45,124 nt of DNA from Oscillospiraceae bacterium (GTDB taxonomy: Bacteria > Bacillota > Clostridia > Oscillospirales > Oscillospiraceae), in assembly GCA_902775985.1 (NCBI GenBank), contig CACYOR010000012.1, positions 1 to 45,124 on the forward strand, in the 5' to 3' direction. Within the stretch, counting starts at the first letter, position 1. Each line of letters begins with the position of its first letter. The notes beneath the pieces were generated by a model, which ran no database searches, was not told the origin of the DNA, and was given only the letters and a program-made list of their open reading frames with translations. Of this stretch, positions 10,839 to 32,171 are shown in pieces. The position numbers and the translations under genes were made by a program.

Positions 10839-10858
10839 AGCTTCCTCCTATTTTTACG

Positions 10859-13440: not shown

Positions 13441-13496
13441 TTCCTTATTAAATCTTTTTGGAGTTGTTTTTATTGACTAGTGGAATTAAGGATTCC
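13430..13496 (+). promoter_or_regulatory. Twin operators GGAAT-N5-ATTCC
   Basis: Two palindromes share arms and spacing: 13430-13444 (spacer TGTCG) and 13482-13496 (spacer TAAGG). The second extends to TGGAAT/ATTCCA. They are 52 bases apart centre to centre, about five helical turns. The second lies just inside the repressor reading frame. They are the natural binding sites for the CI-like protein. Confidence 0.65.
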
Positions 13497-14177: not shown

Positions 14178-15546
14178 CGGCAAGACCGGCGTAGCCTATC
14201 GCTTCTTCGTCTCCACTGGGCGGGACAGTGACGGCAAGCAGATCCGCCATACCAAGACCTGGACGCCCACTCCCGGTATGACGGAGAGGCAGATGGAGAA
14301 GGCCGCACAGAAAGCCGCCGCTGATTTTGAGCGAGCCATCGAGCAGGGCTATGTGGCCGACGACCGGCAGAGCTTCCAGGAGTACGCCGAGTATGTACTG
14401 GACCTCAAGGAACGCAGCGGCGCGAAGCACAAGACCATCGAGAGCTATCGCTTTCTGCTTGGCCGGATCAATCCCGCCATCGGCTTTATGAAACTGCAGG
14501 ATATCCGCCCACAGCATCTTAATCAGATGTATAAGAGCCTCGCCAAAAGCGGCCAGAGAGCCAACCAGGGCCGGGCGACGGCGAAAGATGATTCCATACC
14601 CGCCCTTCTGAAATCGCTGAAGCTGAGCCACGCAAAGGCCGCCGAGTTGGCCGGACTGTCTGCCGCTACGGTTGACAAACTGTGCAAACGGGAGGCCGTA
14701 TCCATCGAATCGGCCGGGAAACTGTGTACGGCCTTCGGTCTGGATATCAAGAAATCTTTCCTTGTGGAGAAGGACATGCGCCCGCTCTCGAATAAGTCGC
14801 TGCTGGAGTATCACCGCTGCGTGCACGCGATCCTCGCTCAGGCAGAGCGGGAGATGCTGATCCCCTACAATCCCGCTGAGAAAGCGACGCCTCCAAAGGT
14901 GACGCGTAAGGAAGTCAACTACTTCCAGCCGGAGGAGCTGTGCAAGATCCTGGACGCACTGGACGCGGAGCCGATCAAGTGGCGCACGATTGTCAATCTG
15001 CTGATCGTCACCGGCTGTAGGCGCGGAGAGATCGCAGGGCTAAAGTGGAAGAACGTGGACTTCAAGAACGGGAAGATCAAGATCGACAGCACCCTGCTCT
15101 ACAGCAAGGACCGGGGGATCTATGAGAACGCCACCAAGACCGGCGACACGCGTTTCCTGAAGCTTCCCGCCGAGACAATGGATCTGTTGAAAGACTATCG
15201 GCAGTACTGGCTGGAGCTGCGCTTCAAGAAGGGCGACCGCTGGCAGGGCGGGGACTATGTTTTCACACGGGATGACGGCAGCGTAATCCACCCGGATAGC
15301 CTGACCGCCTATCTCAACCGATTCTCCGAGCAGCACCCGGAGCTGCCGCATATCAACCCCCACGCATTTCGACACACGGTGGCCAGCGTGCTCATCAATG
15401 CCGGACAGGATATCGTCACGGTCTCCAGGCGTCTCGGTCATTCCCGGACGAGCACGACTCTCGACGTATATTCGCACCTGATCGCAGAGGCCGACGCCGA
15501 TGCGAGCGAGGTCACTGCCGACGCACTTCTTCGCCGGAAGGCATGA
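14155..15546 (+). CDS. int: Tyrosine integrase with inserted helix-turn-helix domain
   Basis: This 463-aa protein starts at ATG 14155 behind GAAGGAGG. The order is: arm-binding N-terminus (IQRIDGKTGVAYRFFVSTGR), core-binding domain, catalytic domain. Catalytic residues are visible in TGCRRGEIAGLKW (about 286-298), HAFRHT (about 403-408) and GHSRTSTTLDVYSH (nucleophile Tyr near 439). Residues of about 150-205 are an extra helix-turn-helix (LSHAKAAELAGLSAATVDKL) inside the core-binding domain. The length exceeds the usual 380-400 because of this insert. It would recombine at the tRNA-Arg 3' end, about 150 bases away. Arm-site repeats lie just downstream. Confidence 0.93.
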   Translation: MASIQRIDGKTGVAYRFFVSTGRDSDGKQIRHTKTWTPTPGMTERQMEKAAQKAAADFERAIEQGYVADDRQSFQEYAEYVLDLKERSGAKHKTIESYRFLLGRINPAIGFMKLQDIRPQHLNQMYKSLAKSGQRANQGRATAKDDSIPALLKSLKLSHAKAAELAGLSAATVDKLCKREAVSIESAGKLCTAFGLDIKKSFLVEKDMRPLSNKSLLEYHRCVHAILAQAEREMLIPYNPAEKATPPKVTRKEVNYFQPEELCKILDALDAEPIKWRTIVNLLIVTGCRRGEIAGLKWKNVDFKNGKIKIDSTLLYSKDRGIYENATKTGDTRFLKLPAETMDLLKDYRQYWLELRFKKGDRWQGGDYVFTRDDGSVIHPDSLTAYLNRFSEQHPELPHINPHAFRHTVASVLINAGQDIVTVSRRLGHSRTSTTLDVYSHLIAEADADASEVTADALLRRKA

Positions 15547-15551
15547 AAAAA

Positions 15552-15599
15552 GCGGTTGCAATTCTCTTTCAATCAGAGAGCTACAGCCGCCGTTTTTTT
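15552..15599 (+). terminator. Terminator after the element A integrase
   Basis: GCGGTTG pairs with CAGCCGC and CTCT with AGAG, followed by seven T residues. It lies six bases after the stop codon. Confidence 0.7.
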
Positions 15600-15606
15600 G
15601 AAGTTG

Positions 15607-15628
15607 TGCACGAAATGTGCACGAAATC
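15607..15628 (+). repeat. GTGCACGAAAT x2 (right integrase arm-site candidates)
   Basis: Two direct copies at 15607-15617 and 15618-15628 match those at 216-237 near the left end. The distance to the tRNA fragment at 15697 is 68 bases. Confidence 0.65.
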
Positions 15629-15663
15629 GCTGTTTTGAATAAACCCGCTCAGAAATAAGAAAA

Positions 15664-15717
15664 CCCGGAAACCCTTGATACAAGCGGGTTTCCGGGTGGC
15701 ACGCGATAAGGGATTCG
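15664..15717 (-). repeat. Right att of element A: terminator plus short tRNA-Arg 3' fragment
   Basis: A hairpin CCCGGAAACCC / GGGTTTCCGGG (about 15665-15696) abuts TGGCACGCGATAAGGGATTCG (15697-15717 on the plus strand), the 3' end of tRNA-Arg including CCA. The same order, terminator then tRNA end, is found at the intact tRNA. Identity to the tRNA stops at 15717, where a hairpin-rich insert begins. Confidence 0.7.
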
Positions 15718-15816
15718 CCTGCATTTTGTTTTCTGCGCGTAAGAGCAGAAAACAAAATTATAGTATTCGCCAGTGTTTGCACTGGCTCATGCAGGCCACG
15801 CCGTGGCCTGCGGACA
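15718..15816. repeat. 99-bp hairpin cluster inserted in a tRNA T-arm sequence
   Basis: Three hairpins follow each other: ATTTTGTTTTCTGC / GCAGAAAACAAAAT, CCAGTG / CACTGG and GCAGGCCAC / GTGGCCTGC. The segment is flanked by GGATTCG at 15711-15717 and 15817-15823, like a 7-bp target duplication. It looks like a small palindromic (MITE- or REP-type) insertion. No reading frame is present. Confidence 0.5.
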
Positions 15817-15824
15817 GGATTCGA

Positions 15825-15918
15825 ATCCCTCACATCTATGCAAAATGCGGGCCACCCGAATGGGTGACCCGCATTTTGGCACGCGATAAGGGATTCGAAC
15901 CCCTGACCTTCTGGTCCG
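15825..15918 (-). repeat. Second copy of the 94-bp att repeat; left att of element B
   Basis: This is an exact copy of 1-94: a diverged T-arm-like start, a GC hairpin and the tRNA-Arg 3' fragment (15877-15918). It marks the left limit of element B. The fragment shares 42 bases with the intact tRNA at 32095 and then diverges. Confidence 0.85.
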
Positions 15919-16293
15919 AGCCCTCTTTTACCCGGAAAATGTGGAGCATTCAGCACCGTCACAGTCTGTAAAACGAGGGCTTCCACGGCCAGAATGGGTC
16001 AGTGCCTGGGTCAGGAGTCTGTATTTCACAACATACCCCATGTAAAATTTACGTAGCAAACTAAGGAAGAAAGCCTTTCCTGTGCTTTTTTCAAGCCGAT
16101 GCCCCTATCTATTCTGCTTGAGTCTACGCACTCCTCCTGTGTTTATACAATACTTGCATTATATAACACAGGGAGCCGCAAAATCGGGATAGGTAAAATT
16201 TTCCTCGCTAAGCAATGAAAAATTTTCCACCAGACAAAGGCGCAATTTCAAACTGCGACTCATGAATCAATCGACAATCATCTGTCACTACAA
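15919..16293. other. Left end of element B, non-coding
   Basis: No gene is seen. The stretch holds an inverted repeat AGCCCTC-TTTTA / TAAAA-CGAGGGCT (15919-15976), the arm-site motif CCAGAATGGGTC-N6-TGGGTCAGG (15989-16015) continuing as AGTCTGTATTTCAC, and CTCGCTAAGCAATGAAAA (16204-16221), which recurs near the other end. An AT-rich hairpin around 16194-16227 may terminate the ubiD operon. Confidence 0.55.
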
Positions 16294-17631
16294 TCAGCCG
16301 AGCTCGTAATCGGCCATATTGATCTTCTGAAAGGCAATCCGATTATAGCAGCTGGGTTTGGGAACCGGGTACGTGCAATCGAAACCGATCTTGGCGCTTA
16401 CATTTCCCTTCACCACGGGATTCAGTTCATGTGCGAAAACGCCGGGGATAATAACAACATCCTGAGCCGGATCCATTCTCGTCGCCATGGCAAACTCTAC
16501 ATCCGACGGATCGTAGATATCCACATCTGAGTTGACGACGGTCACCATCTGCAAGTCAGAGAATTCCACGAAAGCCGCCATGATTGCGTTTTTCGCCATG
16601 CCGTTATAGGGCGGATCCATCTGTAAAACCATGTGATAATGATTACCTCCGTGAGAGAGATATACATTTTTAAGCCCCTTCACCTTTTTCCCGATGGATT
16701 GCAGCAGGTTCGCCTCAATGCCCAAACCCTGACCGTTGAGCACCTCGATGCCCGGATGCAGCATATGAATCACAGGCTCCCGATTCAGACTGATCGCCTT
16801 TACTCGCACCACCCACCGGTCTTCGCGCGTGGCATAATATCCGCTGACCTCACCGAACGGGCCCTCCGGCTCCCGCACGAAGGGCAGAATTTCCGCCTCC
16901 AGAATCATCTGCGCGTCGGCGATACCCTCCACCGCCACTGTTCTGCTCCTGCACAGCCGGGCGGGCTCTCCCAGAAGATAGGACGCCACCGCAAGCTCGT
17001 CCACATCAATGGGCGCGGCGGAGCTGGGCGTCGTGGCAGCTACAAAATAGGCCGGATGTACGCCATTGTTGATCGTAATCTCCAGCGGGAGACCCCGCGC
17101 CTCGCAGCGCTCATAGTAGTCTCGCAGATGTCTTCCCACGTCCATGAGGATCCCCAGGCGGTCCGGGCCGCTGACCATGAGCCGGTGGACGGAGGTATTT
17201 CTCACACCGGTATCCGGATCCCTGGCGATGATCACGCAGTTGGAGAAATAGGGGCCGCCGTCCTCCAGCGCGTGGGTGGGGACCGGGATCCGGCCTAGAT
17301 CCGGCCGCTCCATAAACTCGTATTGGGCAGGCGCGTCCTCCACCAGCACGGGCGCCACCGGGGCTTGATGCAGAGCGGTGATCGCCTTTGCAAACAGGGC
17401 TGAAAGCTCCGGCGCCGGCGTGTCGAAAATCGCGGCCACATTTTCCCGATTCCACCACATACCCGTGGTGACCGGGTAATCATATCCTCTGACACGATCA
17501 AATACCAGCGCTTTGCCGCCCTCCATCGCCGCGGCCACGCCCGCCAGCTCGTGAACGGCGTCCACCTGGGTTTTCACGTGCGTCAGCCGGCCGGCCTGTT
17601 CCATTTTTACCAGACAATCCTTCAAATCCAT
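16294..17631 (-). CDS. ubiD: UbiD family prenylated-FMN decarboxylase
   Basis: This 445-aa protein starts at ATG 17631, with TAGAGG upstream; it follows ubiX by 10 bases. UbiD enzymes reversibly decarboxylate aromatic or alpha,beta-unsaturated acids with prenylated FMN. Visible family features are the Asn-x4-Arg segment in GVRNTSVHRLMVSG and the EGPFGEVSGYY motif (about 258-268), which carries acidic active-site residues, and metal-binding HGGNHYHMV further on. Length is normal. UbiX (the prenyltransferase) is adjacent and an LpdD-like chaperone is nearby, so the cofactor supply is complete. The LpdD link resembles gallate-type phenolic-acid decarboxylases. The actual substrate cannot be read from the sequence. 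Confidence 0.9.
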   Translation of the reverse strand: MDLKDCLVKMEQAGRLTHVKTQVDAVHELAGVAAAMEGGKALVFDRVRGYDYPVTTGMWWNRENVAAIFDTPAPELSALFAKAITALHQAPVAPVLVEDAPAQYEFMERPDLGRIPVPTHALEDGGPYFSNCVIIARDPDTGVRNTSVHRLMVSGPDRLGILMDVGRHLRDYYERCEARGLPLEITINNGVHPAYFVAATTPSSAAPIDVDELAVASYLLGEPARLCRSRTVAVEGIADAQMILEAEILPFVREPEGPFGEVSGYYATREDRWVVRVKAISLNREPVIHMLHPGIEVLNGQGLGIEANLLQSIGKKVKGLKNVYLSHGGNHYHMVLQMDPPYNGMAKNAIMAAFVEFSDLQMVTVVNSDVDIYDPSDVEFAMATRMDPAQDVVIIPGVFAHELNPVVKGNVSAKIGFDCTYPVPKPSCYNRIAFQKINMADYELG

Positions 17632-17641
17632 TGCGATACCT

Positions 17642-18205
17642 CTACTTTCCCTCCCAGGCCCGAAAGCCCGGAAGCGTAATATCATATTGCAGCAGCGCCT
17701 TTCCCAGGATATGATCGACCATATCCCGGGCAGTTTGCGCCCCGGAATAGAACGTCAATACCGGCGGCAGCACCACGCAGCCCGCCGCTGTGACGCTTTC
17801 CATGTTTCGGATGTGGATCAGGCTCAAAGGCGTCTCCCTGGTCAGGAGCACGGTCTTCCTGCGCTCCTTGATGCACACGTCGGCCGCGCGGGTCAGCAGG
17901 TTGTCCGAAAGCCCGGCGGCAATTGCGGCCAGGGTTCTCATGCTGCAGGGCGCCACGATCATGCCGTCGGTTTGGAAGGATCCGCTGGCAATGGCGGCCT
18001 CCGTGTTGCGGGGATCATAGCAGTAATCCGCCAGCTCCCGCACCTGCCGCAGCTCCATACCGCACACGCAGGGCAGCATGCGCGCCGCGTTCGGCGTCGT
18101 CACCAGGTGCGTCTCTACATGGGGGAGATCCCGGAGCAGTTCCAGCAGACGAATCCCCATCTGCAGGCCGTCCGCGCCGCTGATACCGACGATGAGCTTC
18201 TTCAT
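17642..18205 (-). CDS. ubiX: UbiX flavin prenyltransferase
   Basis: This 187-aa protein starts at ATG 18205, overlapping the stop region of the CoA-transferase gene (18208), so translation is probably coupled. It makes prenylated FMN from FMN and dimethylallyl phosphate for UbiD. The nucleotide-binding start MKKLIVGISGADG, the central APCSMRTLAAIAAGLSDNLL and KTVLLTRETPLSLIH segments are the standard family signatures. Length fits the family. It feeds the UbiD encoded 10 bases downstream. Confidence 0.93.
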   Translation of the reverse strand: MKKLIVGISGADGLQMGIRLLELLRDLPHVETHLVTTPNAARMLPCVCGMELRQVRELADYCYDPRNTEAAIASGSFQTDGMIVAPCSMRTLAAIAAGLSDNLLTRAADVCIKERRKTVLLTRETPLSLIHIRNMESVTAAGCVVLPPVLTFYSGAQTARDMVDHILGKALLQYDITLPGFRAWEGK

Positions 18206-18207
18206 GC

Positions 18208-19764
18208 TCAAAAACGCAGCCCCATCTTTTCCGGACGGAAAAGACGTTCATCCATCAGCCTGAGATCCTCCGCGATTTCCGGGACATAGTCCATCCGATC
18301 CAGAATATGCTTCTGCAGATCCACGCCCGGCGCGATCTCCGTCAGGGTCAGGCGGCCATCGCGGATTTCAAACACGGCCCGCTCGGTGATGAACAGCACC
18401 ATCTGCCCCGTCTCCCGGGCGAAGGTGGAGGAAAAGGTGATCTGATCCAGATCCCGAATAAATTTCACACCGCCGCCGTCCTGGACGATATTCAGCTTTC
18501 CGTCCTCTACGCGGATATCGCATTTGCCGGAGGTGAAGGAGAAGGCGAAGCAGACCTTGGGCGTGTTCTGGGAAATATTCACAAAGCCGCCGGGGCCCAC
18601 GCAGCGCCCGGAGAATTTGGACACGTTCACGTTGCCGCTGGGGTCGATTTCCGCTCCGCCCAGCACGGTCATATTCAGGGCCCCGCCGTCATAGGCGGTG
18701 AACATATCCGCGGAGCGGGAGATGGAATCCGGATTGACGGAGGCGCCGAACAGCGGCCCGTCCAGAGGAACGCCGCCATAGACGCCGGTTTCCAGCGAGA
18801 GGGTGACCTGCTGGCTGAGGCCCTCTTCGTTGGCCACGTTGGCCACCCCCGCGGGGATGCCGATGCCCAGATTCACAAGGTCGCCCTTCCGCAGCTCCAT
18901 GGCCGCCCGGCGGGTGATGACCTTCTTGTAGCTGAGCTTCAGGGGCTTGACCGAGCCCTCGGTGGGAACCCGGATATCGCCGATCATGGCGGGCTCGTAG
19001 GCCAGGGCGGCGTTATCCCCCTTCCCGGCTCTGACGATGTAATCCACCATGGATTTGTGAATCAGCACGTGCCGCGGATCCAGGGTGTTGGCGCCGACGA
19101 TCTCCTTGACCTCCACAATCACGATACCGCCGTTATTGTGCACCGCCGACGCCAGCTCCAGCAGATCGCCGTGCACCGGCTCGTCCTGCAGAGAGACGTT
19201 GCCCAGCTCGTCGGCGTAGCTTGCGTGGAGGATGCAGGCGTCGATGGGGAATGCCTTGTAAAACAGATAGTCCCTGCCGTCTATGTTCACCAGCTGAACG
19301 ATCTCCCGCCCCTGTTCTCTGGCGGCCTCGTTCATGATACAGCCGTCCTGTCTGGGGTCGGCGTAGGTATGCAGGCCCACATGAGTCAGAATGCCGGGCC
19401 GCTTGCCGCCGATGGCGGCCATCAGCTGGCCGTAAACGCCAAGGGGCATGGAAAACGCCGCGATTTTGTTTTCGCTGCAGGCGCGCCCGATGGCGGGAGA
19501 CATGCGCAGATGGGAAGCGATCAGGGTTTTGATGATCCCTTCATCCCGGATCTTGGACAGGCCGCAGCCGTCCTCCACAAAGTCGCCCGGCGCCACGCCG
19601 GAAACGATGGTCAGATCCCGCGGCGTGTTTTCCCGGCGGAATTTGTCGCCAATCGCCTCCAGGATGCTGTCCGGCGAGGCAAAGGCGCCAAAGCCGCTGA
19701 TGCCGACGGTCATCCCGTCATGGATCAGGTCCGCCGCCTCTCGCACTGAAATGATGTTTGCCAT
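18208..19764 (-). CDS. Family I acyl-CoA:carboxylate CoA-transferase (Pct/YdiF type)
   Basis: This 518-aa protein starts at ATG 19764 behind GACGGGGGAAAA; a longer reading to 19803 has no good site. It is a fused alpha-beta family I CoA-transferase. The N-half begins SVREAADLIHDGMTVGISGF. The C-half has GDLVNLGIGIPAGVAN and the catalytic Glu in LSLETGVYGGVP (near residue 323). Such enzymes move CoA between short-chain acids such as acetate, propionate or lactate. In this operon it may exchange CoA from the acyl-CoA made by the ferredoxin oxidoreductase onto the imported acid. The substrate pair is inferred only. Confidence 0.88.
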   Translation of the reverse strand: MANIISVREAADLIHDGMTVGISGFGAFASPDSILEAIGDKFRRENTPRDLTIVSGVAPGDFVEDGCGLSKIRDEGIIKTLIASHLRMSPAIGRACSENKIAAFSMPLGVYGQLMAAIGGKRPGILTHVGLHTYADPRQDGCIMNEAAREQGREIVQLVNIDGRDYLFYKAFPIDACILHASYADELGNVSLQDEPVHGDLLELASAVHNNGGIVIVEVKEIVGANTLDPRHVLIHKSMVDYIVRAGKGDNAALAYEPAMIGDIRVPTEGSVKPLKLSYKKVITRRAAMELRKGDLVNLGIGIPAGVANVANEEGLSQQVTLSLETGVYGGVPLDGPLFGASVNPDSISRSADMFTAYDGGALNMTVLGGAEIDPSGNVNVSKFSGRCVGPGGFVNISQNTPKVCFAFSFTSGKCDIRVEDGKLNIVQDGGGVKFIRDLDQITFSSTFARETGQMVLFITERAVFEIRDGRLTLTEIAPGVDLQKHILDRMDYVPEIAEDLRLMDERLFRPEKMGLRF

Positions 19765-19806
19765 TGATTTTCCCCCGTCCTCATAAGTTTCGAATGGATG
19801 CAAGAA

Positions 19807-19833
19807 TGCGCAGAATAGTGTCTATTCTGCGCA
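19807..19833 (-). terminator. Intercistronic hairpin between oxidoreductase and CoA-transferase genes
   Basis: TGCGCAGAATA and TATTCTGCGCA form an 11-bp stem with a 5-base loop. No T run follows on the minus strand, so it may stabilise or process the mRNA rather than end it. Confidence 0.45.
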
Positions 19834-19843
19834 TTCCGATGTG

Positions 19844-20710
19844 TTACAGGCAGGCGAGCTGAGACAGCTGCTGCAGGGTCTCATAGCGCGTCTTCGCCTC
19901 TTCGATGATCTGCGCAGTGATCTCGTCGTTGATGCGGTTGAAACGCTTCTGACGGGACAGGTATTCGGGAATCAGCTCAAAATTTGTCGGTTTCTGGTTA
20001 ATGGTGATTTTCCCGTCTTCCCGCTCGAAGAGGAGCCACATGCCGCTCTTGATCGCGAGCTTCGCGATCTGGACGGTCTGGTCGGCGGGGAACTTCCAGC
20101 CCGAGGGGCAGGGAGTCATCACATGGATAAAGCAGGGGCCGTCCTTGGTTGCCGCTTTTGCCAGCTTCCGCTTGAAGTCCCGGATATTCCCCACAGAGGC
20201 CGTCGCCTGATAGGCAAGGGGCGTATGGAGCAGCATGAAGTCGATATTCTTGCTGACCTCCTTTTTGCCGGTGGGCGTGGTCTTGGTAGAGGCGCCCAGA
20301 GTCGTCGCGCTGGAGCGCTGGCCGCCGGTGTTCATATATGCCTCGTTGTTGTAGCAGATATAGATGGCCTTGTGTCCGCGCTCAATGGCGCCGGAGAGGG
20401 ACTGCAGGCCGATATCAAAGGTGCCGCCGTCGCCGGCAAATCCCATCACGGTCACATCGTCCATGCCGCGGATTTTCAGGGCCTCAGAGACGCCGGAGGC
20501 AAACGCGGGCAGGCTCATCAGAACAGTCTGCACCGAGGGGATGCCCCAGCCGGTCTCGTCGCCGCTGCCGGTCAGGATGGCCGAGCAGCTGGGAGGCGTC
20601 ATGGTGATCGTTTTCGGGCCGAGAACCTCAAGCGCGGAACGTCCGATCAGCTCCATCGGGCAGCCCTGGCAGGTGGTCATGCCTTTGCTCAGAAGATCCA
20701 GTTCAGCCAT
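19844..20710 (-). CDS. 2-oxoacid:ferredoxin oxidoreductase, beta (TPP) subunit
   Basis: This 288-aa protein overlaps the alpha gene by eight bases. It binds thiamine pyrophosphate through GDGGT (93-97) and the following NNEAYMNTGGQ (121-131). Cysteines at 14, 17 and 42 fit the iron-sulfur ligands of the family. It forms a four-subunit enzyme with the genes upstream and converts a 2-oxoacid plus CoA to acyl-CoA, CO2 and reduced ferredoxin. Pyruvate, 2-oxoisovalerate or an aryl-2-oxoacid are all possible. A 79-base gap separates it from the CoA-transferase gene and includes an inverted repeat (TGCGCAGAATA / TATTCTGCGCA, 19807-19833), possibly an internal attenuator. Confidence 0.92.
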   Translation of the reverse strand: MAELDLLSKGMTTCQGCPMELIGRSALEVLGPKTITMTPPSCSAILTGSGDETGWGIPSVQTVLMSLPAFASGVSEALKIRGMDDVTVMGFAGDGGTFDIGLQSLSGAIERGHKAIYICYNNEAYMNTGGQRSSATTLGASTKTTPTGKKEVSKNIDFMLLHTPLAYQATASVGNIRDFKRKLAKAATKDGPCFIHVMTPCPSGWKFPADQTVQIAKLAIKSGMWLLFEREDGKITINQKPTNFELIPEYLSRQKRFNRINDEITAQIIEEAKTRYETLQQLSQLACL

Positions 20711-21902
20711 TTGTCACTACCTCCTCTTCTTTCAGGTCAATCCAGATCGGGGCGTCGCAGACCGAGTTCTCAGCGCCCAGCTCCTCCGTCCTCGCGATCA
20801 CGTCCTCCACGGTCTGTTCCCAGATATCCCGTCCGCCGAGGCCGGCCACGAAGCTGTAGGCGTTGGCGTCGAGCCTGCCGAGGCGCATGCTGGCCAGGAC
20901 CTCCTCATACAGGGGGCCGAAGGAACCCATGGCGGAAACGCGGTCGATCACGGCGACGTTTTTCGCGTTTTTCAAAGCCTCCGCGACCTCCTTCGCCGGG
21001 AAGGGCCGGAAGGCGACAACGCGCAGGATACCGACCTTCTTTCCCTCCTCGCGTAGCTGCCGGACCACATGCTGCACCGTGCCGGCCATGGAGCCCATGC
21101 AGACCACCACCGTGTCCGCATCCTCAACGTTCTCGCACAGGATCCGCCCGTAGCGGCGTCCGAAGAGCTCGCCAAACTGCTCAAAACGCTCGTCCAAAAC
21201 GCCTGCGGCGGCGCGCATGCCCAGATCCTGGGAGCGCTTGATCTCGGTGAAGATGGCGGGGGAGGTCAGGTTGTTGATGGCATAGGGCAGTTCCGGATCC
21301 AGCACCGCGTTGACAGGGTTAAAGTCGGTGATGAAGCGCTCCGCCTCCTCCTCGGTGGGCACGTCCACCGGCTCGGTCAAATGGGAGCAGAAGAAGCCGT
21401 CGATGTCCACCATCGTGGGCGTCAGGACACGCTCGTCCTCACTGGTGCGATAGGCGATCATGATAAAGTCCAGCGCCTCCTGCGGGCTCTTGGCGAAGAG
21501 CTGGATCCAGCCCTGATCCCGCTGCGTCATGATATCGGAGTGGTCGCACCAGAGGCACATGGGGCCGGGGATGGCGCGGCTGACGACCGCCATGACAGCG
21601 GGCAGGCGGGAGGCCGAGCAGGTGCCGGTCACCTCATGCATCAGAGCCAGGCCGTGGGAGGCGCTGGCGGTGAAGGTGCGCACGCCGGTGGAGGCGGCGC
21701 CGATCACGGCGCTGAGGGCCGAGTGTTCCGATTCTACGGTTATGTAGGTGGCGTCGTACTGCTTGGTGTCGATCAGGGAGGAGATCGTCTCCACAATCGG
21801 CGTCTGCGGCGTGATGGGATACGCCGCGACCAGCTGCACCTTGGAACGCATTACGCCATGCGCGATGGCGGCGTTGCCGTCCAGAGCTTTAATCACACCC
21901 AT
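20703..21902 (-). CDS. 2-oxoacid:ferredoxin oxidoreductase, alpha subunit
   Basis: This 399-aa protein starts at ATG 21902, overlapping the ferredoxin-subunit stop by one base. It has the family opening GNAAIAHGVMRSKVQLVAAYPITPQTPIVE and TYITVESEHSALSAVIGAAS, which binds CoA/substrate and contacts TPP. The C-terminal domain contains VVVCMGSMAGTV and GILRVVAFRPFP. Length is normal for the separate alpha subunit. It works with the beta, gamma and delta subunits encoded in the same operon. Substrate preference is unresolved. Confidence 0.92.
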   Translation of the reverse strand: MGVIKALDGNAAIAHGVMRSKVQLVAAYPITPQTPIVETISSLIDTKQYDATYITVESEHSALSAVIGAASTGVRTFTASASHGLALMHEVTGTCSASRLPAVMAVVSRAIPGPMCLWCDHSDIMTQRDQGWIQLFAKSPQEALDFIMIAYRTSEDERVLTPTMVDIDGFFCSHLTEPVDVPTEEEAERFITDFNPVNAVLDPELPYAINNLTSPAIFTEIKRSQDLGMRAAAGVLDERFEQFGELFGRRYGRILCENVEDADTVVVCMGSMAGTVQHVVRQLREEGKKVGILRVVAFRPFPAKEVAEALKNAKNVAVIDRVSAMGSFGPLYEEVLASMRLGRLDANAYSFVAGLGGRDIWEQTVEDVIARTEELGAENSVCDAPIWIDLKEEEVVTNG

Positions 21903-22213
21903 TACTGATCTCCCTCCCCTTCAAATTCAGATTCCAGAACAAAGTCGATGGCCTTCTTGGGACACTCGACCGTGCAGATGCCGCAGCCCTTGCAGTAGGT
22001 GTAGTCGACGGTCATGACCTCGGCCTTCTCGATTACGCCGCAGGGGCAGTACTCCGCGCAGATGCCGCAGCGAATACAGTCGTCATGGCGGATGACCGGC
22101 CGGCGGTAACGCCAGACGCCGGTGTGAACATCGGAGACCTTAACCGACACCGGCCCGACAATTTTGGGCAGGGTCTCAAGCATTTTCGTACGCTGCTTTA
22201 CAAGCTCTTGCAT
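21902..22213 (-). CDS. 2-oxoacid:ferredoxin oxidoreductase, delta (2x[4Fe-4S]) subunit
   Basis: This 103-aa ferredoxin-type subunit has two CxxCxxCxxxC clusters: C46, C49, C52, C56 and C74, C77, C80, C84. They carry electrons from the TPP centre to soluble ferredoxin. The N-terminal 40 residues are the usual delta-subunit extension (GVWRYRRPVIRHDDC). The chosen start overlaps the gamma gene by 38 bases; the alternative ATG at 22183 lacks a ribosome binding site. Coupled translation with gamma is likely. Confidence 0.92.
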   Translation of the reverse strand: MQELVKQRTKMLETLPKIVGPVSVKVSDVHTGVWRYRRPVIRHDDCIRCGICAEYCPCGVIEKAEVMTVDYTYCKGCGICTVECPKKAIDFVLESEFEGEGDQ

Positions 22214-22703
22214 TCATCTCACCAGCCTTTCCGGGGATTTTTACTTCGATGGCCTTCAGCAGGCTCTCAATGGAGACGCAGCCGGTGGCCTTGGCGAGCG
22301 CGCCCAGCATTGCCACATTGGGCGGCACCTCGCCCAGCATCTCATGGGTGATCGTGTCCGCGTCGATGCCGCAGACCGTTTCAAAGGCGTCGCAGCTGAA
22401 GTCCTTGTTAGTGTTGACCACCAGGGTGGAACCGGGGCGGACGCCCTCGGTAATGTCGATGCCCAGATCCGCCAGACTGGTATCGAAGCAGATCACGCAG
22501 TTGGGGCGGTAAACATAGCTTTTCACCTCAATGGGGCCGTCCGCGATGCGGGCATAGGTATACACGGGAGCGCCCTTGCGCTCCTGGCCGTAGGACGGAA
22601 TGGCCTGGCCGAACTTGCCCTCCAGAATTGCCGCATTGATCAATATTTTGGCGGCGGTTACAGCGCCCTGTCCGCCGCGGGAATAAAATTTAAATTCCCA
22701 CAT
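22176..22703 (-). CDS. 2-oxoacid:ferredoxin oxidoreductase, gamma subunit
   Basis: This 175-aa protein starts at ATG 22703 behind GAGGAGG. It has the gamma-domain signature FYSRGGQGAVTAAKILINAA and PSYGQERKGAPVYTYARI, and ends with an Ala-rich helix. It is the first of the gamma-delta-alpha-beta order seen in many anaerobes. It follows the Lrp-type regulator by 34 bases in the same direction. Confidence 0.92.
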   Translation of the reverse strand: MWEFKFYSRGGQGAVTAAKILINAAILEGKFGQAIPSYGQERKGAPVYTYARIADGPIEVKSYVYRPNCVICFDTSLADLGIDITEGVRPGSTLVVNTNKDFSCDAFETVCGIDADTITHEMLGEVPPNVAMLGALAKATGCVSIESLLKAIEVKIPGKAGEMNARACKAAYENA

Positions 22704-22737
22704 AATTCATGTCCTCCTCGAAATAACGGGCCGAGTC

Positions 22738-23199
22738 TCACTCCTGATATCTGGCAATATATGCCGTGGTCTTGTATTGATGGATCAGCAGCTGCACCTC
22801 GGCCCCTTTCACGCCGTTTATGGAGTACACCTTGTCCTCCATGTATTGGGAAACTTTTTCCAGGCTGTCAATGTAGGCATGGACATGCAGGCCGGTGGTG
22901 CCCGTGTGCTGGGAAACGATCGCGATTTCCGGAAGCTTCATCAGCTCGTGGGCCACATGGTCGATCATCCTGGGCTCCACCTCAATGTCCATGTATATGC
23001 CGGCGTATTTTTGGAACGCCTTGGCGTCGATGATGGCGGTGAAGCCGAGAATAATCCCGTTTTCCTTCATGGTGTTGATTCGCTCCCGCACCGCGACGCG
23101 GGACAGATGCACGCGTTCGGCAATTTCAGAGTAGCTGCAGCGGCCATCCTCCCGAAGAATGTCCAGAATGGCCTCGTCTACGGAATCAAGTTGAAACAT
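22738..23199 (-). CDS. Lrp/AsnC family transcriptional regulator
   Basis: This 153-aa protein has an N-terminal winged helix-turn-helix (LDSVDEAILDILREDGRCSY, then VHLSRVAVRERINTMKENG) and a C-terminal RAM effector domain (about 68-150). The family responds to amino acids or related acids and often controls the operon in which it lies. Here it sits between the permease and oxidoreductase genes, so autoregulation and control of the pathway are likely. An effector such as the imported acid or a 2-oxoacid is an inference. Confidence 0.9.
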   Translation of the reverse strand: MFQLDSVDEAILDILREDGRCSYSEIAERVHLSRVAVRERINTMKENGIILGFTAIIDAKAFQKYAGIYMDIEVEPRMIDHVAHELMKLPEIAIVSQHTGTTGLHVHAYIDSLEKVSQYMEDKVYSINGVKGAEVQLLIHQYKTTAYIARYQE

Positions 23200-23250
23200 T
23201 GGCTTCCCTCCATATCATTTTCCCGATCGGCTGCGGCCGATCCGGGTTTA

Positions 23251-24669
23251 TCAGCTCAGAAGCCCCAGCCCGGCGACGACCGCCGTCCAAACGGAGGCCA
23301 CCACCACATAGCAGAGGGTGATGATCACGCCGGAGCCCATCATGTCCTTGATCTTCCAGTAACCGCCGGAATAGGTGGTAAAGCAGGTGGGATCAATGGG
23401 CACCAGCAGAAGCATGCTGGTGGACATGCAGACGGGCAGGCAGATCACAATGGGGTTGACGCCGAGCGTGACGGCCAGGCCGCCGACCACCGGCAGGCAA
23501 AGGCCGGCCAGGGAGACGCCCTGCGGCATCGGGTAATGGCCCACCATCATCATGATATTGATGACGAAAACCAGCACGAGGATGCCCATACCCGCGACCT
23601 TGGACAGGAAGAGATTTGCCAGAATGCCGCTGAGCCACTCGCCGGTGCCCAGGTTGGCGACCACCGTCGCCAGCGCGGTGGCGGCGCCGCAGATCAGGAA
23701 CGCAGACCAGTCGATCTTGCTGCTGGCGTCCTTCCAATCGACCATGTTCATGCCAGGCAGGGACATGACGAAGATGCCGGCCCAGGCGGTCATATACATG
23801 TCGATGCCGGTTCTCTTGGGGATGAACCACATCACGATCATGATAGCGAAAACAATGGTAAATTTCAACTCATCGCCGCGCAGCGGGCCGATGGTTTTCC
23901 GATCCTCCTTCAGGGAGTCCAGCCCCTTGACCACGTCGATCTCGGGCTTGTACAGCCAGCAGAGCACCAGCCAGGCCAGAACCGTACTCACCACCGCCAC
24001 AGGGACGCCCACCAGGGACCACTGAGCGAAGCTGACCTCCACGCCCACGATGTTCTTCATCAGGGACATGGTGACCGCGTTCATGCCGCTGCCGGCGGGC
24101 GTGCCGATGCCGCCGATAGCGGCGCCGACGGGAATGCCGAGCATGATGGCCTTACCGAATTTGGACTCGCCGGGCTTGCAGTTGTTCTGCTCCAGAATAG
24201 GCATGCACAGGCCGAAGAACACCAGTGCCGTGGGGATGTCCGCCAGGAACATGGAGACGATGCAGGTGCCAAGCATGACGGCCAGCAGCACCGCCTTGGC
24301 CTTGTTGCCAAAGGCGGGCAGAACGTACAGGGAGATGCGCTTGCCCAGACCGACCTTGGAAAAGATCTGTCCGATGATCATCGCGGCCAGCAGGAAGAAG
24401 GGGCCTGTGGACGCGAAGTTTGCCAGGATGGTGCCCTCTGTTTCAAAGCCCACCCAAGCGCCGAAGAACAGCACGAAAATCGCCGTGACTGCCATGGGCA
24501 CCGCCTCTGTCAGCCACAGAAGGACCGCCACAAACAGCACCAGGAAGCCGTCCCATCCCGCCTGGTCCAGACCGGAGGGCACAAAATTTCTCAAAATTGC
24601 GAAGCCAGCAAAGATCAGGACGAGGTATACGGCTTTCTTCAGCTTATCGTTTTTCCCGTTGTTTGCCAT
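23251..24669 (-). CDS. SLC13/DASS family dicarboxylate-type permease
   Basis: This 472-aa inner-membrane protein starts at ATG 24669 behind GAGAGGAGAG; the longer reading to 24720 lacks a site. It has about eleven hydrophobic segments. The two family hairpin regions are visible as IGGIGTPAGSGMNAVTMSL and the C-terminal STSMLLLVPIDPTCFTTYSG. DASS carriers import di- or tricarboxylates and related anions with sodium. It is the first gene of the operon, so it probably brings in the substrate that the enzymes downstream process. The usual SNT motif is replaced here by GTPAGSG, so the anion may be unusual. Confidence 0.87.
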   Translation of the reverse strand: MANNGKNDKLKKAVYLVLIFAGFAILRNFVPSGLDQAGWDGFLVLFVAVLLWLTEAVPMAVTAIFVLFFGAWVGFETEGTILANFASTGPFFLLAAMIIGQIFSKVGLGKRISLYVLPAFGNKAKAVLLAVMLGTCIVSMFLADIPTALVFFGLCMPILEQNNCKPGESKFGKAIMLGIPVGAAIGGIGTPAGSGMNAVTMSLMKNIVGVEVSFAQWSLVGVPVAVVSTVLAWLVLCWLYKPEIDVVKGLDSLKEDRKTIGPLRGDELKFTIVFAIMIVMWFIPKRTGIDMYMTAWAGIFVMSLPGMNMVDWKDASSKIDWSAFLICGAATALATVVANLGTGEWLSGILANLFLSKVAGMGILVLVFVINIMMMVGHYPMPQGVSLAGLCLPVVGGLAVTLGVNPIVICLPVCMSTSMLLLVPIDPTCFTTYSGGYWKIKDMMGSGVIITLCYVVVASVWTAVVAGLGLLS

Positions 24670-24829
24670 AACCAATTCTCTCCTCTCATTTTTTTCGGAG
24701 TATCCCGCGGCCGTGCGCATCGGCCGGGGACAAAAGGTTTATCGCGACGTACCTTTGTACTGGCTCTATTTTAGCATTATTCCCCTTTCCTTTTTGATTT
24801 TAATTCGATAAATCCAATTCCGATTCGTT

Positions 24830-24858
24830 TATACAAAAAAATTCTACAAAATTGTCAA
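24830..24858 (-). promoter_or_regulatory. Probable promoter of the catabolic operon
   Basis: On the minus strand a consensus TTGACA (24858-24853) is followed after 17 bases by TGTATA, or after 19 bases by TATAAA (24833-24828). The leader downstream is AT-rich with short inverted repeats, where the Lrp-type protein could bind. Confidence 0.5.
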
Positions 24859-25007
24859 ACCGAGGGACACATTTTTGTTTCTTTTGCTGTTTTCTCTTTT
24901 TTGTATTTTCCCTTTTTACTCAAAATGAATTGAAAATGATGCACATCAGCGAAAAAATTCGCCTAATTGTTTTCCGGACCGCAGCCATCGCTCAAGTGAC
25001 AAAATGA

Positions 25008-25047
25008 AATCGCACCATCAAAGCGGAAGTGCTTTGATGGTGCGATT
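25008..25047 (-). terminator. Perfect 17-bp hairpin between lpdD and the permease gene
   Basis: AATCGCACCATCAAAGC and GCTTTGATGGTGCGATT flank a 6-base loop. On the minus strand TTTCATTTT follows, so it probably terminates the lpdD transcript. The length and perfection are unusual. Confidence 0.6.
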
Positions 25048-25125
25048 GTCATATTCCACATTAAAAACACGCCGATATAAGCACGAGCAAATGCGTGCGG
25101 AGATTACATTTATTCATTCTGCGGC

Positions 25126-25491
25126 TTATTCGTTAATCTCTATCAATACTCGCTGAAGTAATCGGTCACAGCAACCCTGCACCCTCAGAAGCTGCTCAGG
25201 GCTGATATTATCTACATGGATACCGCAGGAGCAAACCGCCGTGCAGCGCTTCGCCTTTGCCACTGCCTCGGCAAAGATGCGGCCTATAGCCTCATCCTTG
25301 TGGCCCACGCCATTGAGCACCGAAGATGTGGCGCTGATCCCTTCCCCGCTCAGGCTAGGCCGGGCAATGGCCATGACCACGCTTCCCACATGGGGCCTGC
25401 CTCCACCGTAGACTGCAAGAGTATAGTCTTCTCCCATCCGGATCACGTCACAGCAGATTACATATCCGTCAAACAGTTCTTCTCGAAACAT
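25126..25491 (-). CDS. lpdD: LpdD-like prenyl-flavin chaperone / UbiD accessory protein
   Basis: This 121-aa protein starts at ATG 25491 behind AGAGGTG. The pattern GGRPHVGSVVMAIARPSLSG, then SATSSVLNGVGHKDEAIGRI, and CGIHVDNISPEQL matches my memory of the LpdD family, named from the third gene of gallate decarboxylase loci. Members are thought to help mature UbiD with prenylated FMN. It is transcribed towards the ubiD operon but separated from it by a hairpin and a promoter, so it may be expressed independently. Its presence favours a phenolic-acid-type UbiD. Family assignment is from motifs only. Confidence 0.75.
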   Translation of the reverse strand: MFREELFDGYVICCDVIRMGEDYTLAVYGGGRPHVGSVVMAIARPSLSGEGISATSSVLNGVGHKDEAIGRIFAEAVAKAKRCTAVCSCGIHVDNISPEQLLRVQGCCDRLLQRVLIEINE

Positions 25492-25804: not shown

Positions 25805-26479
25805 ATGATGCAGAAGAAAATCGTCGCCATCAACTGCAGCCCCCGCATGGGCTGGAACACCGATATACTGGTCACAGAAGCGGCCCGCGGCGCGGAGGGA
25901 AACGGGGCTATCATAGAGAAATTTGACCTCTATCGTCTGGAGAAGTTCACCGGCTGCATTTCCTGCTTTGGATGTAAGCGCCCGGGACACGAAGGCGTAT
26001 GCGTCTGTCGGGATGGGCTGGCGCCGGTGCTGGAGGCCATCCGAAACGCCGATGGCTTGATCCTCGGCACTCCCAACTACTTTGGGGATGTAAGCGCGGA
26101 CTTTCGCGCCGTGTATGAACGGTAGCTGTTTCAGTAACTGACCTATCAGAAGGAGCGCGTGAGCTGCAACGAAAAGCAGATCCCCGTGCTGCTTATTATG
26201 ACCAGTAACACGCCCACTGCCGCTTACCCGATGATCGGATATAAAAAGATACTTCGCGGCTACCAGAAATCTCTGGAAACCTTCGTGGGTCCCACAAAGC
26301 TAATGATCTGCGGGGAAACCCAACAGGTGGCCGATTACAGTAAATTCAACTGGACGATGTTCGATGGTGCAGAGCGCATCCAGCGCCGGGAGAAAGTCTT
26401 CCCCAAGGAAAAACAGAAGGCTTTTGAACCGGGAAAGACTCTCATAAACATGTGGAGAACACAATATATCCCTTGCTAA
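25805..26479 (+). pseudogene. Flavodoxin/NADPH-dependent FMN reductase family gene with two in-frame stops
   Basis: One reading frame of 224 codons runs from ATG 25805 or 25808 to 26479 but is broken by TAG at 26123 and TAA at 26135. The N-part has the flavin-binding opening KIVAINCSPRMGWNTDILV, a cysteine cluster (CISCFGC) and LILGTPNYFGDVSADF, as in iron-sulfur flavoproteins. The C-part (NEKQIPVLLIMTSNTPTAAY) continues in the same frame. The two stops lie 12 bases apart and each could arise from a single base change (for example TTG to TAG and TAC to TAA). I read it as a recent pseudogene; recoding is not supported. Confidence 0.75.
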
Positions 26480-28604: not shown

Positions 28605-28634
28605 ACCTTGAAAAATGAATAGGGAGGATTGCAA

Positions 28635-28844
28635 ATGAAAGAGTCGAACTACAAAAGTTATTGTGAGCTGCCGCTGTTCCTGGACGCGAAAACCGTGGCA
28701 AAGGTACTGGGGATCTCCATCTCCAGCTGCTACGAGCTGATTCATGAAGAGGACTTCCCTTCCATCAACATCGGCAACCGAATCGTCGTGCCGAAGGATC
28801 AGTTCATTCGATGGGCCGAGGAAAAGTCTCGGAGGTGTCGATGA
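28635..28844 (+). CDS. Excisionase family helix-turn-helix protein
   Basis: This 69-aa protein starts at ATG 28635 behind GGGAGG. It is a MerR/excisionase-type winged helix: LFLDAKTVAKVLGISISSCY, then DFPSINIGNRIVVPKDQFIR. Such proteins bend att DNA and direct the integrase towards excision. The stop overlaps the next start (ATGA, 28841-28844). It begins the integration module of element B, about 1.5 kb before the integrase. Confidence 0.85.
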   Translation: MKESNYKSYCELPLFLDAKTVAKVLGISISSCYELIHEEDFPSINIGNRIVVPKDQFIRWAEEKSRRCR

Positions 28845-30291: not shown

Positions 30292-30353
30292 AACAGTAGC
30301 TATTATCTGTGTTCTGTGGTATTTGTGTTTGCTAAAGAAAGAAGGTGGAACAA

Positions 30354-31514
30354 ATGGCAAAGGGCAAACGGGCAAACGGTGAGGGCAGCATCCGCAAGCG
30401 CAAGGATGGTCGCTGGGAAGGGCGCTACACGGTAGGCCACGATCCCGAAACCGGGAAATGCATTTACAAAAATGTACTGGGCAAAACCCAGGGCGAAGTC
30501 AAAGAAAAGCTGAAAGCCGCCATCGAGCAAGCGCGAGCTTTGGATGTGAGCCGTGCCAATGGCTTCACGCTCTGTCAGTGGCTGCAATACTGGCTGGACA
30601 ATTATGGGAGCGTTTATCTGCGCCCCTCCTCCATGACAAACTACACAGGCTTCCTGAACAACCAGATCAAGAATGATGAGATCGGGAGCATGAAGCTCAG
30701 AGATCTGACCATGCACGACGTGCAGTTCTTCTTCAACCGCATGCGCACAGCGGGACGGGTGCAACGGAAGGAGTCGGAGAAGAAGCCAGCTGGCTTATCC
30801 GCAAAGACCATCCGCAACATGTACTTCTTCATATCCCATGCGCTGGATCGAGCAGTGAGGGAAAAGCTGATTGTGTCCAATCCTACCGATGACTGCATTC
30901 TTCCCAAGAAAGAGAAGGTAGAAATGAAAACGCTCCCGCTGGAAGATCTCAGCAAGTTTTTCGAGGAGGCAAAGCGCTCAGGTGTGTTCGAGCTGTACTT
31001 CACAGATCTGGCGACGGGTCTGCGTCGGGGAGAACTGCTGGGGCTCAAGTGGACGGACATTGACTTCGACAGCAACACCATCGATATCCACTGCCAGATC
31101 ACCCGCACCGGCGGGAAGGTGCAGGAATCCCCGCTGAAAACGAAAAATGCCTACCGGCAGATCGTAATCCCGCCTGAGCTGACACAGGTGCTGAAAGAGA
31201 AGCAGGACCGGGAAAAGGGCTTCAGCGAGTATGTGTTCTCCTCACCCAGCGGCGGACCAATCTCGCCGGACAGCGTACTGAACATGCTGCACCGGGTACT
31301 GAAACGAGCAGGGCTGGAGCAGGTGCGCTTCCACGACCTGCGCCATACCTTCGCAACCCTGGCGCTTCAAAACGGCGTGGATGTGAAAACCCTCTCCGGT
31401 CTCCTCGGCCACTACTCCGCAGGCTTCACGTTGGACACCTACGGCCACATCACCAACGCCATGAAGAAGGATGCGGCCGACAAGGTGGGTGGGTTCCTGT
31501 CGGGTGCGGTATGA
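30354..31514 (+). CDS. int: Tyrosine integrase of element B
   Basis: This 386-aa protein starts at ATG 30354 behind AAGAAGG. The N-terminal arm-binding domain (GEGSIRKRKDGRWEGRYTVG) is followed by a core-binding domain and a catalytic domain with TGLRRGELLGLKW (about 222-234), HDLRHTFA (about 327-334) and LGHYSAGFTLDTYGH (nucleophile Tyr near 363). All catalytic residues are present. It lies 580 bases from the tRNA-Arg 3' end, with several arm-site candidates between. It is of the Tn916/clostridial phage integrase type and differs clearly from the integrase of element A. Confidence 0.95.
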   Translation: MAKGKRANGEGSIRKRKDGRWEGRYTVGHDPETGKCIYKNVLGKTQGEVKEKLKAAIEQARALDVSRANGFTLCQWLQYWLDNYGSVYLRPSSMTNYTGFLNNQIKNDEIGSMKLRDLTMHDVQFFFNRMRTAGRVQRKESEKKPAGLSAKTIRNMYFFISHALDRAVREKLIVSNPTDDCILPKKEKVEMKTLPLEDLSKFFEEAKRSGVFELYFTDLATGLRRGELLGLKWTDIDFDSNTIDIHCQITRTGGKVQESPLKTKNAYRQIVIPPELTQVLKEKQDREKGFSEYVFSSPSGGPISPDSVLNMLHRVLKRAGLEQVRFHDLRHTFATLALQNGVDVKTLSGLLGHYSAGFTLDTYGHITNAMKKDAADKVGGFLSGAV

Positions 31515-32057: not shown

Positions 32058-32095
32058 AAAAAGTTCCTTATTTCTCACGAAATAAGGAACTTTTT
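32058..32095 (-). terminator. Terminator of tRNA-Arg
   Basis: AAAAAGTTCCTTATTTC and GAAATAAGGAACTTTTT flank a 4-base loop (TCAC), directly after the encoded CCA on the minus strand. It belongs to the end brought in by element B. Confidence 0.85.
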
Positions 32096-32171
32096 GGCAC
32101 GCGATAAGGGATTCGAACCCCTGACCTTCTGGTCCGTAGCCAGACGCTCTATCCAGCTGAGCTAATCGCGC
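32095..32171 (-). tRNA. tRNA-Arg (anticodon ACG), intact
   Basis: The 77-base cloverleaf has acceptor arms GCGCGAT and ATCGCGT (one G-U pair), D-arm GCTC/GAGC, anticodon stem TCTGG/CCAGA with loop CTACGGA (anticodon ACG), T-arm with GTTCGAATC-like loop and encoded GCCA end. It is the integration target of the tandem elements to its left. Partial copies lie at 53-98, 15697-15717 and 15877-15918. Confidence 0.95.

Follow-up and report, generated by a model that had tools for sequence, protein, structure and literature searches.

An operon joining a 2-oxoacid:ferredoxin oxidoreductase to a UbiD decarboxylase in Oscillospiraceae: a candidate module for fermentation of aromatic 2-oxo acids

The question raised by this locus is what an anion transporter, a 2-oxoacid:ferredoxin oxidoreductase (OFOR), a coenzyme A (CoA) transferase and a prenylated-flavin decarboxylase of the UbiD family might accomplish together in a single operon. 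The genes lie on contig CACYOR010000012.1 of an Oscillospiraceae bacterium (assembly GCA_902775985.1), and the whole stretch analyzed, 45,124 nucleotides, is referred to here as the window. A preliminary description made from the DNA letters had named ten genes, all of which we find at the place and on the strand it gave, each with support from a profile or a PDB sequence match (families were assigned via Pfam and NCBIfam profiles and matches to PDB sequences). The operon is real and complete, and it is rare in the samples searched. With moderate confidence, we read it as a module, complete in itself, for the fermentation of an aromatic 2-oxo acid that is probably N-heteroaromatic. The features on which this reading builds are as follows.

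25126..25491, minus strand: LpdD-like chaperone of reduced prenylated flavin mononucleotide (prFMNH2) (Pfam PAC_bac 2e-31; PDB LpdD 8p4w 1e-4)
25008..25047, minus strand: terminator-like site with a 17-pair stem, between LpdD and the operon (terminator scan)
23251..24720, minus strand: SLC13/DASS anion symporter, first gene of the operon (TIGR00785, 223.7 bits vs. 198.6; PDB NadC-family/VcINDY chains, 9e-28 to 3e-28)
22738..23199, minus strand: Lrp/AsnC-type regulator (Pfam HTH_AsnC-type and AsnC_trans_reg)
22176..22703, minus strand: OFOR gamma subunit (TIGR02175, 181 bits vs. 81.1)
21902..22213, minus strand: OFOR delta subunit (TIGR02179, 83.7 bits vs. 60.05; two CxxCxxCxxxC motifs for 4Fe-4S clusters)
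20703..21902, minus strand: OFOR alpha subunit (PDB alpha subunit of pyruvate:ferredoxin oxidoreductase (POR) 9bt4, 9e-88; oxalate oxidoreductase, 2e-70; YPITP motif)
19844..20710, minus strand: OFOR beta subunit, binding thiamine pyrophosphate (TPP) (PDB POR beta 9bt4, 8e-60; GDG...NN TPP motif)
18208..19803, minus strand: class I CoA-transferase, single chain, YdiF-like (PDB YdiF 2ahu, 1e-116; SLETG)
17642..18211, minus strand: UbiX flavin prenyltransferase (NCBIfam TIGR00421, 206 bits vs. a cut-off of 108.9)
16294..17631, minus strand: UbiD, decarboxylase dependent on prenylated flavin mononucleotide (prFMN), AnInD/HmfF branch, last gene of the operon (Pfam UbiD 4e-49; PDB AnInD 7p9q)

Nine genes run leftward from 24720 to 16294 with gaps of −38 to +51 bp, and the order of transcription on the minus strand is the LpdD-like gene, then SLC13, Lrp, OFOR gamma, delta, alpha and beta, CoA-transferase, UbiX and UbiD. 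The LpdD open reading frame (ORF) sits 405 bp upstream of the SLC13 permease with the stem at 25047–25008 in between, so that the tight leftward operon that had been described holds for the nine genes from SLC13 to UbiD and leaves out LpdD, which is probably a transcription unit of its own. The terminator scan as a whole gave 9 sites vs. 9.0 in shuffles, and only this long stem stands out. The Lrp regulator that had been assigned to the operon does lie inside it. The start of UbiD had been placed at 17685; position 17631, with a purine-rich site upstream and a 10-bp gap to UbiX, is the most likely one.

The key motifs of the enzymes are whole (TPP in beta, two 4Fe-4S in delta, SLETG in the CoA-transferase, and R, E and E in UbiD). 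The OFOR belongs to the four-subunit POR type, with alpha, beta, gamma and delta chains, a TPP motif and two 4Fe-4S motifs. The CoA-transferase has two CoA_trans stretches and belongs to class I, with Glu338 in SLETG as the candidate catalytic residue. Membership of the permease in SLC13 follows from its TIGR00785 score. For UbiD the domains UbiD_N, UbiD and UbiD_C all score above cut-off and the catalytic residues R168, E274 and E279 are present (numbering of the 463-aa ORF, in which D182, discussed below, corresponds to D164 of the 445-aa form). The small upstream protein belongs to the PAC_bac family and matches LpdD structures, from which a prFMNH2 chaperone role is predicted.

In the pathway that we propose, an anion R-CO-COO− would enter through SLC13 and be oxidized by the OFOR in the presence of CoA, giving R-CO-CoA and CO2 and reducing ferredoxin. 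CoA would then be moved from R-CO-CoA to acetate by the class I CoA-transferase, freeing R-COO−, and the acetyl-CoA formed would yield ATP via acetate kinase with regeneration of acetate. UbiD, using prFMN made by UbiX and delivered by LpdD, would then decarboxylate R-COO− to R-H, which would exit the cell. The net reaction would be R-CO-COO− → R-H + 2 CO2 + reduced ferredoxin + about 1 ATP. Genes for acetate kinase (AckA) and RnfC score above their profile cut-offs in this genome, so that both acetyl-CoA and reduced ferredoxin can be used. We infer the order and direction of the reactions, the substrate and every activity from the sequences; the genes, their order and recurrence, an exchange of CoA-transferase for acyl-CoA synthetase in related operons, the residue D182 and the AckA and RnfC genes are observed.

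The group R is presumed to be aryl because UbiD acts on sp2 carboxylates, and by analogy with the operons described next an arylglyoxylate is the probable substrate. From an arylpyruvate the product would be an arylacetate, whose alpha carbon is sp3 and which the known routes treated in the covered portion of PMC13285125 decarboxylate with glycyl-radical enzymes.

The main support for the pathway comes, by analogy, from parallel operons in two other genera that combine an OFOR with an acyl-CoA synthetase and the decarboxylase VdcCD. With OFOR alpha as query, 299 genomes of the phylum yielded 8 others at 43–53% identity, and 3 of these 8 (L071 and L075 in one genus, L072 in another; loci, genomes and contigs carry our labels L, G and C) have a UbiD nearby, apparently in the same operon; the remaining 5 showed no UbiD match in the stretch fetched. 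The OFOR of these operons is of the same four-subunit type, at 41–46% identity to that of the window. By profile the UbiDs of L071 and L072 are VdcC (760 and 745 bits vs. a cut-off of 650), accompanied by VdcD (92 and 88.5 bits vs. 30), and the arrangement in L075 is near-identical by eye. An ADP-forming acyl-CoA synthetase lies between OFOR and UbiD (scanned by profile in L071, and recognized in L072 and L075 by a length of 707–708 aa and matching starts). LpdD is found in L071 and L075; the transporter is of the tripartite ATP-independent periplasmic (TRAP) type in L071 by scan and in L075 by eye, and SLC13 in L072 by scan; and L071 also carries a PanE-like dehydrogenase. Since the substrate of VdcCD is a hydroxyaryl acid, the product of the parallel OFOR would be a hydroxybenzoyl-CoA and its substrate a hydroxyphenylglyoxylate, and by analogy the window operon would use another arylglyoxylate. 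The CoA-transferase and the acyl-CoA synthetase are unrelated, and in the pathway proposed here both would free the acid for UbiD while saving the thioester energy. Each version would combine import, oxidation of a 2-oxo acid to its acyl-CoA, release of the acid with capture of the thioester energy, and decarboxylation of an sp2 acid.

The OFOR tree suggests that the two versions arose separately. On a tree of alpha and beta with 14 rows, the window clade forms a starred group of 6 and L071, L072 and L075 form a starred group of 3 elsewhere, with L073, L074 and L069 on long branches of unsure placement. Linkage to UbiD requires at least 2 changes even on the starred branches, and 12 of 500 shuffles needed no more changes than that. 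Most simply the two changes are two gains of UbiD linkage, which the difference in UbiD subfamily also suggests. Among the related loci, a fumarate-reductase-like flavoprotein and a small ORF, ferredoxin-like by eye, follow Lrp, OFOR and acyl-CoA synthetase in L068 (12658–14761). In L070 the genes for Lrp and OFOR gamma are separated by one for an isochorismatase/RutB-like hydrolase (12255–13109), and related OFOR operons may therefore act on other 2-oxo acids.

The decarboxylase itself points to a substrate class. The closest solved structure to the window UbiD is AnInD, 7p9q (3e-101 from the single sequence, 6e-119 with a profile), followed by HmfF-type chains. AnInD of Arthrobacter nicotianae is described in the covered portion of its report as specific for indole-3-carboxylate, with D169 modeled as hydrogen-bonding the indole nitrogen and mutants at this position severely impaired (PMC8988006). 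D182 of the window UbiD aligns with D169. In a 32-row alignment, from which L085 was left out, it is kept in every one of the 14 clade rows, which represent 9 distinct proteins, and in 0 of 18 other UbiDs, among them three VdcC-type proteins. In HmfF, H296, R304 and R331 are taken to bind the second carboxylate group of furandicarboxylate; the window clade has V/I, I/V and H at these positions, and L086 and L006 keep the HmfF residues. With D182 kept and the second-carboxylate residues absent, a mono-acid of an NH-heteroaryl seems more likely than a diacid. Aromatic or unsaturated dicarboxylates had been suggested earlier; in view of the UbiD subfamily and the OFOR-VdcCD operons, an aryl 2-oxo acid appears more likely than an unsaturated dicarboxylate. 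Our leading guess is indole-3-glyoxylate converted to indole (R = indol-3-yl), suggested by D182 and, weakly, by a TrpB-like gene that adjoins UbiD in L036. The latter encodes a pyridoxal-phosphate enzyme (675.6 bits vs. 366) at 11476–12846, directly downstream of and convergent with UbiX-UbiD, and weakly hints at indole as product. At 240 bits vs. the cut-off of 650, the window UbiD does not qualify as VdcC, and there is no room for VdcD beside it within the operon, with gaps of at most 51 bp, although ORFs downstream of UbiD were not scanned with the VdcD profile. An AlphaFold2 model of UbiD from 9 orthologues reached a mean predicted local distance difference test score of 50.6 and was not used.

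Several observations weigh against the proposed pathway. SLC13 proteins are known chiefly for di- and tricarboxylates and sulfate, the operon has no gene for making an arylglyoxylate, and some UbiD positions beyond D182 differ from AnInD. The best profile for OFOR alpha is pyruvate synthase and for beta 3-methyl-2-oxobutanoate dehydrogenase, all below curated cut-offs. UbiX-UbiD in L036 and UbiX-LpdD-UbiD in L038 stand on long contigs with neither OFOR nor CoA-transferase, so the acid would also arise or arrive by other routes. The literature searched offers little on indole-3-glyoxylate in the gut, with 1–3 mentions in four of 20 papers listed. Finally, DeFeo et al. could find no motif from which the oxidation of indolepyruvate by an OFOR can be reliably predicted (PMC13290082), so the OFOR sequence leaves the substrate unsettled.

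With these points in mind, one may ask whether the operon instead houses two functions, in which OFOR and CoA-transferase, controlled by Lrp, oxidize a common 2-oxo acid (pyruvate, an arylpyruvate or a branched-chain one) while UbiD and UbiX separately decarboxylate an imported aromatic acid. Lrp regulators often sense amino acids, and each half is found apart from the other: in L068 and L069 the OFOR is accompanied by Lrp and acyl-CoA synthetase, with no UbiD match in the stretch fetched, and L036 and L038 have the decarboxylase genes without OFOR. On the other hand, operons with both UbiD and OFOR fall on two distinct branches of the OFOR tree and differ in UbiD subfamily, and the window operon has neither an aminotransferase nor a second transporter. 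We consider two separate functions unlikely, if still worth keeping in mind. A different order of events, in which UbiD would act first on an imported aromatic or unsaturated (2-oxo) diacid, removing the ring or vinyl carboxylate before OFOR oxidation and CoA transfer, would suit the match to NadC/VcINDY, as SLC13 transporters presumably often carry diacids. It would leave a carboxylate after the OFOR and CoA-transferase steps for which the operon has no consumer, and the HmfF residues to which we assign binding of a second carboxylate are replaced here, so that we judge this order quite improbable.

The chemistry could also be imagined in reverse, with UbiD carboxylating an arene, the transferase loading CoA and the OFOR reductively carboxylating the acyl-CoA to a 2-oxo acid for assimilation. 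In principle OFORs are reversible. UbiD enzymes are reversible as well, according to the covered portion of PMC8988006. However, two carboxylations would cost energy, an arene would need no SLC13 importer, and the parallel operons use an ADP-forming acyl-CoA synthetase, a type treated in the covered portion of PMC13285125 as consuming the acyl-CoA product of an OFOR; a reverse pathway is thus highly improbable. Hardly credible at all is an HmfF-like furan pathway from furandicarboxylate over furoate to 2-oxoglutarate with the OFOR as 2-oxoglutarate oxidoreductase. HmfF-type structures are the second-nearest PDB relatives of UbiD and furoate breakdown presumably ends at 2-oxoglutarate, but the HmfF residues are absent from the window UbiD and the operon has no furoyl-CoA dehydrogenase genes, on which grounds the furandicarboxylate route was rejected; a Geobacillus plasmid UbiD that does have the HmfF residues lies near xanthine-dehydrogenase-type genes. 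We also discarded an oxalate oxidoreductase (alpha, beta and delta match its profiles far below cut-off, and UbiD would be without a role), ring reduction of the benzoyl-CoA type (no ring-reductase gene in the operon, no genome-wide search having been made) and decarboxylation of the phthaloyl-CoA type (phthaloyl-CoA decarboxylases are the weakest among 40 PDB matches of UbiD).

The fermentation module, if it is one, is uncommon. The genome samples are draws, not censuses: UbiD orthologues at 72% identity or more occur in 5 of 300 family-sample genomes, the window's included, and in 2 of 101 from the genus, and in the class sample (1 of 291, E ≤ 1e-120) only the window's own was found. OFOR beta matched 1 of 393 other genomes in the order sample at E ≤ 1e-70 (42% identity). 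On plasmids UbiD matched 366 records, all below 60% identity, with 37.6% the best among 15 listed, and in a phage collection 6 records, at most 32% among 5 listed. A species-level genome collection holds 9 loci encoding a relative. The synteny search that had been proposed for the nine-gene set returned the same order in 6 further genomes (L021/L033, L022/L037, L023/L040, L024/L041, L034 and L085, where a slash marks one contig fetched twice). L021/L033 is a copy in the metagenome-assembled genome (MAG) RUG678, L034 is Oscillibacter sp. 1-3 and L085 is from the genus of the window; the Oscillibacter record carries no MAG label, and we take the strain to be an isolate. At the five loci besides the RUG678 copy the nine proteins are 54–88% identical to those of the window. 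LpdD lies upstream in L021/L033, L023/L040, L034 and L085, with 27–35% identity to the window LpdD where present among those five; L022/L037 gave no LpdD, and neither did L024/L041, whose contig starts about 720 bp before the permease. Beside the operon of Oscillibacter sp. 1-3 a divergent cluster (L034, 11745–18448) reads by eye like hydroxybutyrate/acetoacetate use and contains a two-part CoA-transferase match (14205–15571). L035 and L039 have UbiX-LpdD-UbiD on short contigs past whose ends further genes may lie; L038 and L039 are Phascolarctobacterium MAGs with UbiD at 69% identity.

The preliminary description had placed the operon in an island at a tRNA gene, and this is borne out by a 16.2-kb element that has its own integrase and is bounded by repeats of about 49 bp at a tRNA-Arg gene, with the operon as cargo. 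Its features are these.

15874..15922: left attachment repeat, about 49 bp, 98% identical to the right copy (repeat comparison)
28629..28844, plus strand: AlpA/excisionase-like small helix-turn-helix (HTH) protein (Pfam HTH_17 2e-9, Phage_AlpA 3e-5)
30345..31514, plus strand: tyrosine integrase of the element (Pfam Phage_integrase 1e-26)
32092..32140: right attachment repeat, the 3' part of tRNA-Arg (repeat/tRNA overlap)
32095..32171, minus strand: tRNA-Arg (acg), the integration site (tRNA scan)

An integrase together with repeats overlapping the 3' end of a tRNA gene marks this as a tRNA-targeted integrative element, which also encodes another HTH protein by Pfam. The G+C content is 0.60 in the operon, 0.51 in the remainder of the element and 0.62 in the chromosome to the right. 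A twin copy on contig C139 (16,384 bp) of G081, a genome of the same family but a different genus, shows 99.95% identity across 16,258 bp and ends in the repeats; its UbiD is identical to that of ONVR01000198.1 from RUG678, presumably a rumen MAG, as its name suggests. The twin has no chromosomal flank, and the full-length 100% tRNA-Arg match in G081 is on that contig alone, so a binning error is possible for it; the window copy does run into chromosome. The element is seen only around the window copy and its twin, and the mobile setting that had been claimed is supported for the window copy. Homologous operons without the island had been named as evidence to the contrary, and in part this is what we find: the five other loci (L022/L037, L023/L040, L024/L041, L034, L085) gave no match to the searched element proteins within about 20 kb, and no tRNA lies in the stretches of L022–L024 and L034 (L085 was not scanned for tRNAs); these loci could still sit in an element of some unrelated type.

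Further sites add to this picture. In G935, whose flank is the most similar (97% over 1909 bp), the tRNA-Arg is present on a contig of only 7.4 kb, with no match there to either integrase of the window (int1, int2) or to the searched element proteins. Among six tRNA-Arg stretches of the same genus, L065 alone has an int1-like integrase (67%) adjoining the tRNA, and none has an int2-like one above 28%. A pair of tRNA-like repeats about 15.8 kb apart in G941 was considered as another element and rejected, with no significant int1 or int2 match between them. A third repeat copy, 100% identical, lies at 50–98 of the window, and a second element probably lies to the left of the first, between two repeat copies (99–15837); it has its own tyrosine integrase with an internal HTH stretch (14113–15546) and a 2179-aa protein (3390–9929) with no Pfam match. 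Within the first element, an FMN-reductase-like gene at 25805–26479 seems interrupted (two same-frame ORFs split by a stop, of which only the first matches Pfam), and an integrase-like fragment below cut-off lies near it (26676–27257), a region that we read as a decayed part of the element. The gene at 27392–28213 encodes a protein that combines a UPF0158 stretch with an ACT domain at its C terminus.

A broader proposal, which we offer tentatively and hold to be possible at best, is that anaerobes possess an undescribed, energy-conserving trimming of arylglyoxylates to arenes. It would have come together on more than one occasion, from energy-conserving enzymes that are unrelated and from UbiDs of different types (hydroxyaryl acids to phenols; the AnInD type to indole), and one version would move between gut bacteria on a tRNA-targeted element as a source of indole independent of tryptophanase. 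If the pathway proposed for the window operon is right, it would bring OFOR and UbiD together in one catabolic route, with an aromatic 2-oxo acid as the source of both reduced ferredoxin and ATP, and would let anaerobes form indole or phenols without starting from tryptophanase or tyrosine phenol-lyase. The AnInD-like aspartate suggests a concrete class of starting substrates, and the presence of the operon in the genome of Oscillibacter sp. 1-3 makes direct testing feasible.

The preliminary description had proposed one pathway of import, ferredoxin-reducing oxidation, CoA exchange and prenyl-flavin decarboxylation, a reading that the present analysis favors, and had known no described route with this gene set; none matching was found in the open-access literature searched, nor, in the portion of it covered, a joint OFOR-UbiD operon. 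Among known systems, PadEFGHI (phenylglyoxylate dehydrogenase in NCBIfam) is an enzyme of the OFOR family that converts an arylglyoxylate to aryl-CoA, after which the known fate is ring reduction and not decarboxylation. The window alpha, beta, gamma and delta subunits all match Pad profiles, but far below cut-off and more weakly than other OFOR profiles. VdcCD (NCBIfam NF041204, NF041205) occurs in L071 and L072 in an operon with the same OFOR type; the window differs in that its UbiD is not VdcC and its CoA-transferase stands in for the acyl-CoA synthetase. AnInD, the nearest solved relative of the window UbiD, shares the catalytic R, E and E and the D169 position and differs at some aligned positions, with no OFOR or CoA-transferase partner described in the covered portion of its report (PMC8988006). 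The window's small upstream protein resembles the prFMNH2 chaperone LpdD, as described in the covered portion of PMC10865409, in its structure and PAC_bac matches, whereas it adjoins an AnInD-like UbiD operon rather than a gallate decarboxylase. The Hpd pathway of Clostridium scatologenes (HpdDEFG OFOR, HpdJ, HpdK, HPAD) is alike in that, in the portion of its report covered, a four-subunit OFOR gives an aryl-acyl-CoA, freeing of the acid conserves energy, and the arene p-cresol is released by a decarboxylase (PMC13285125). That pathway proceeds from arylpyruvate to arylacetate with a phosphotransferase and kinase and a glycyl-radical decarboxylase, and the main text of the same paper makes no mention of UbiD. 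The window operon has instead a UbiD, implying one carbon fewer and an arylglyoxylate, together with a CoA-transferase and an importer. Its parts are of known kinds, no description of their combination turned up in the literature searched, and as read here it would fall under the OFOR-driven fermentation of aromatic acids.

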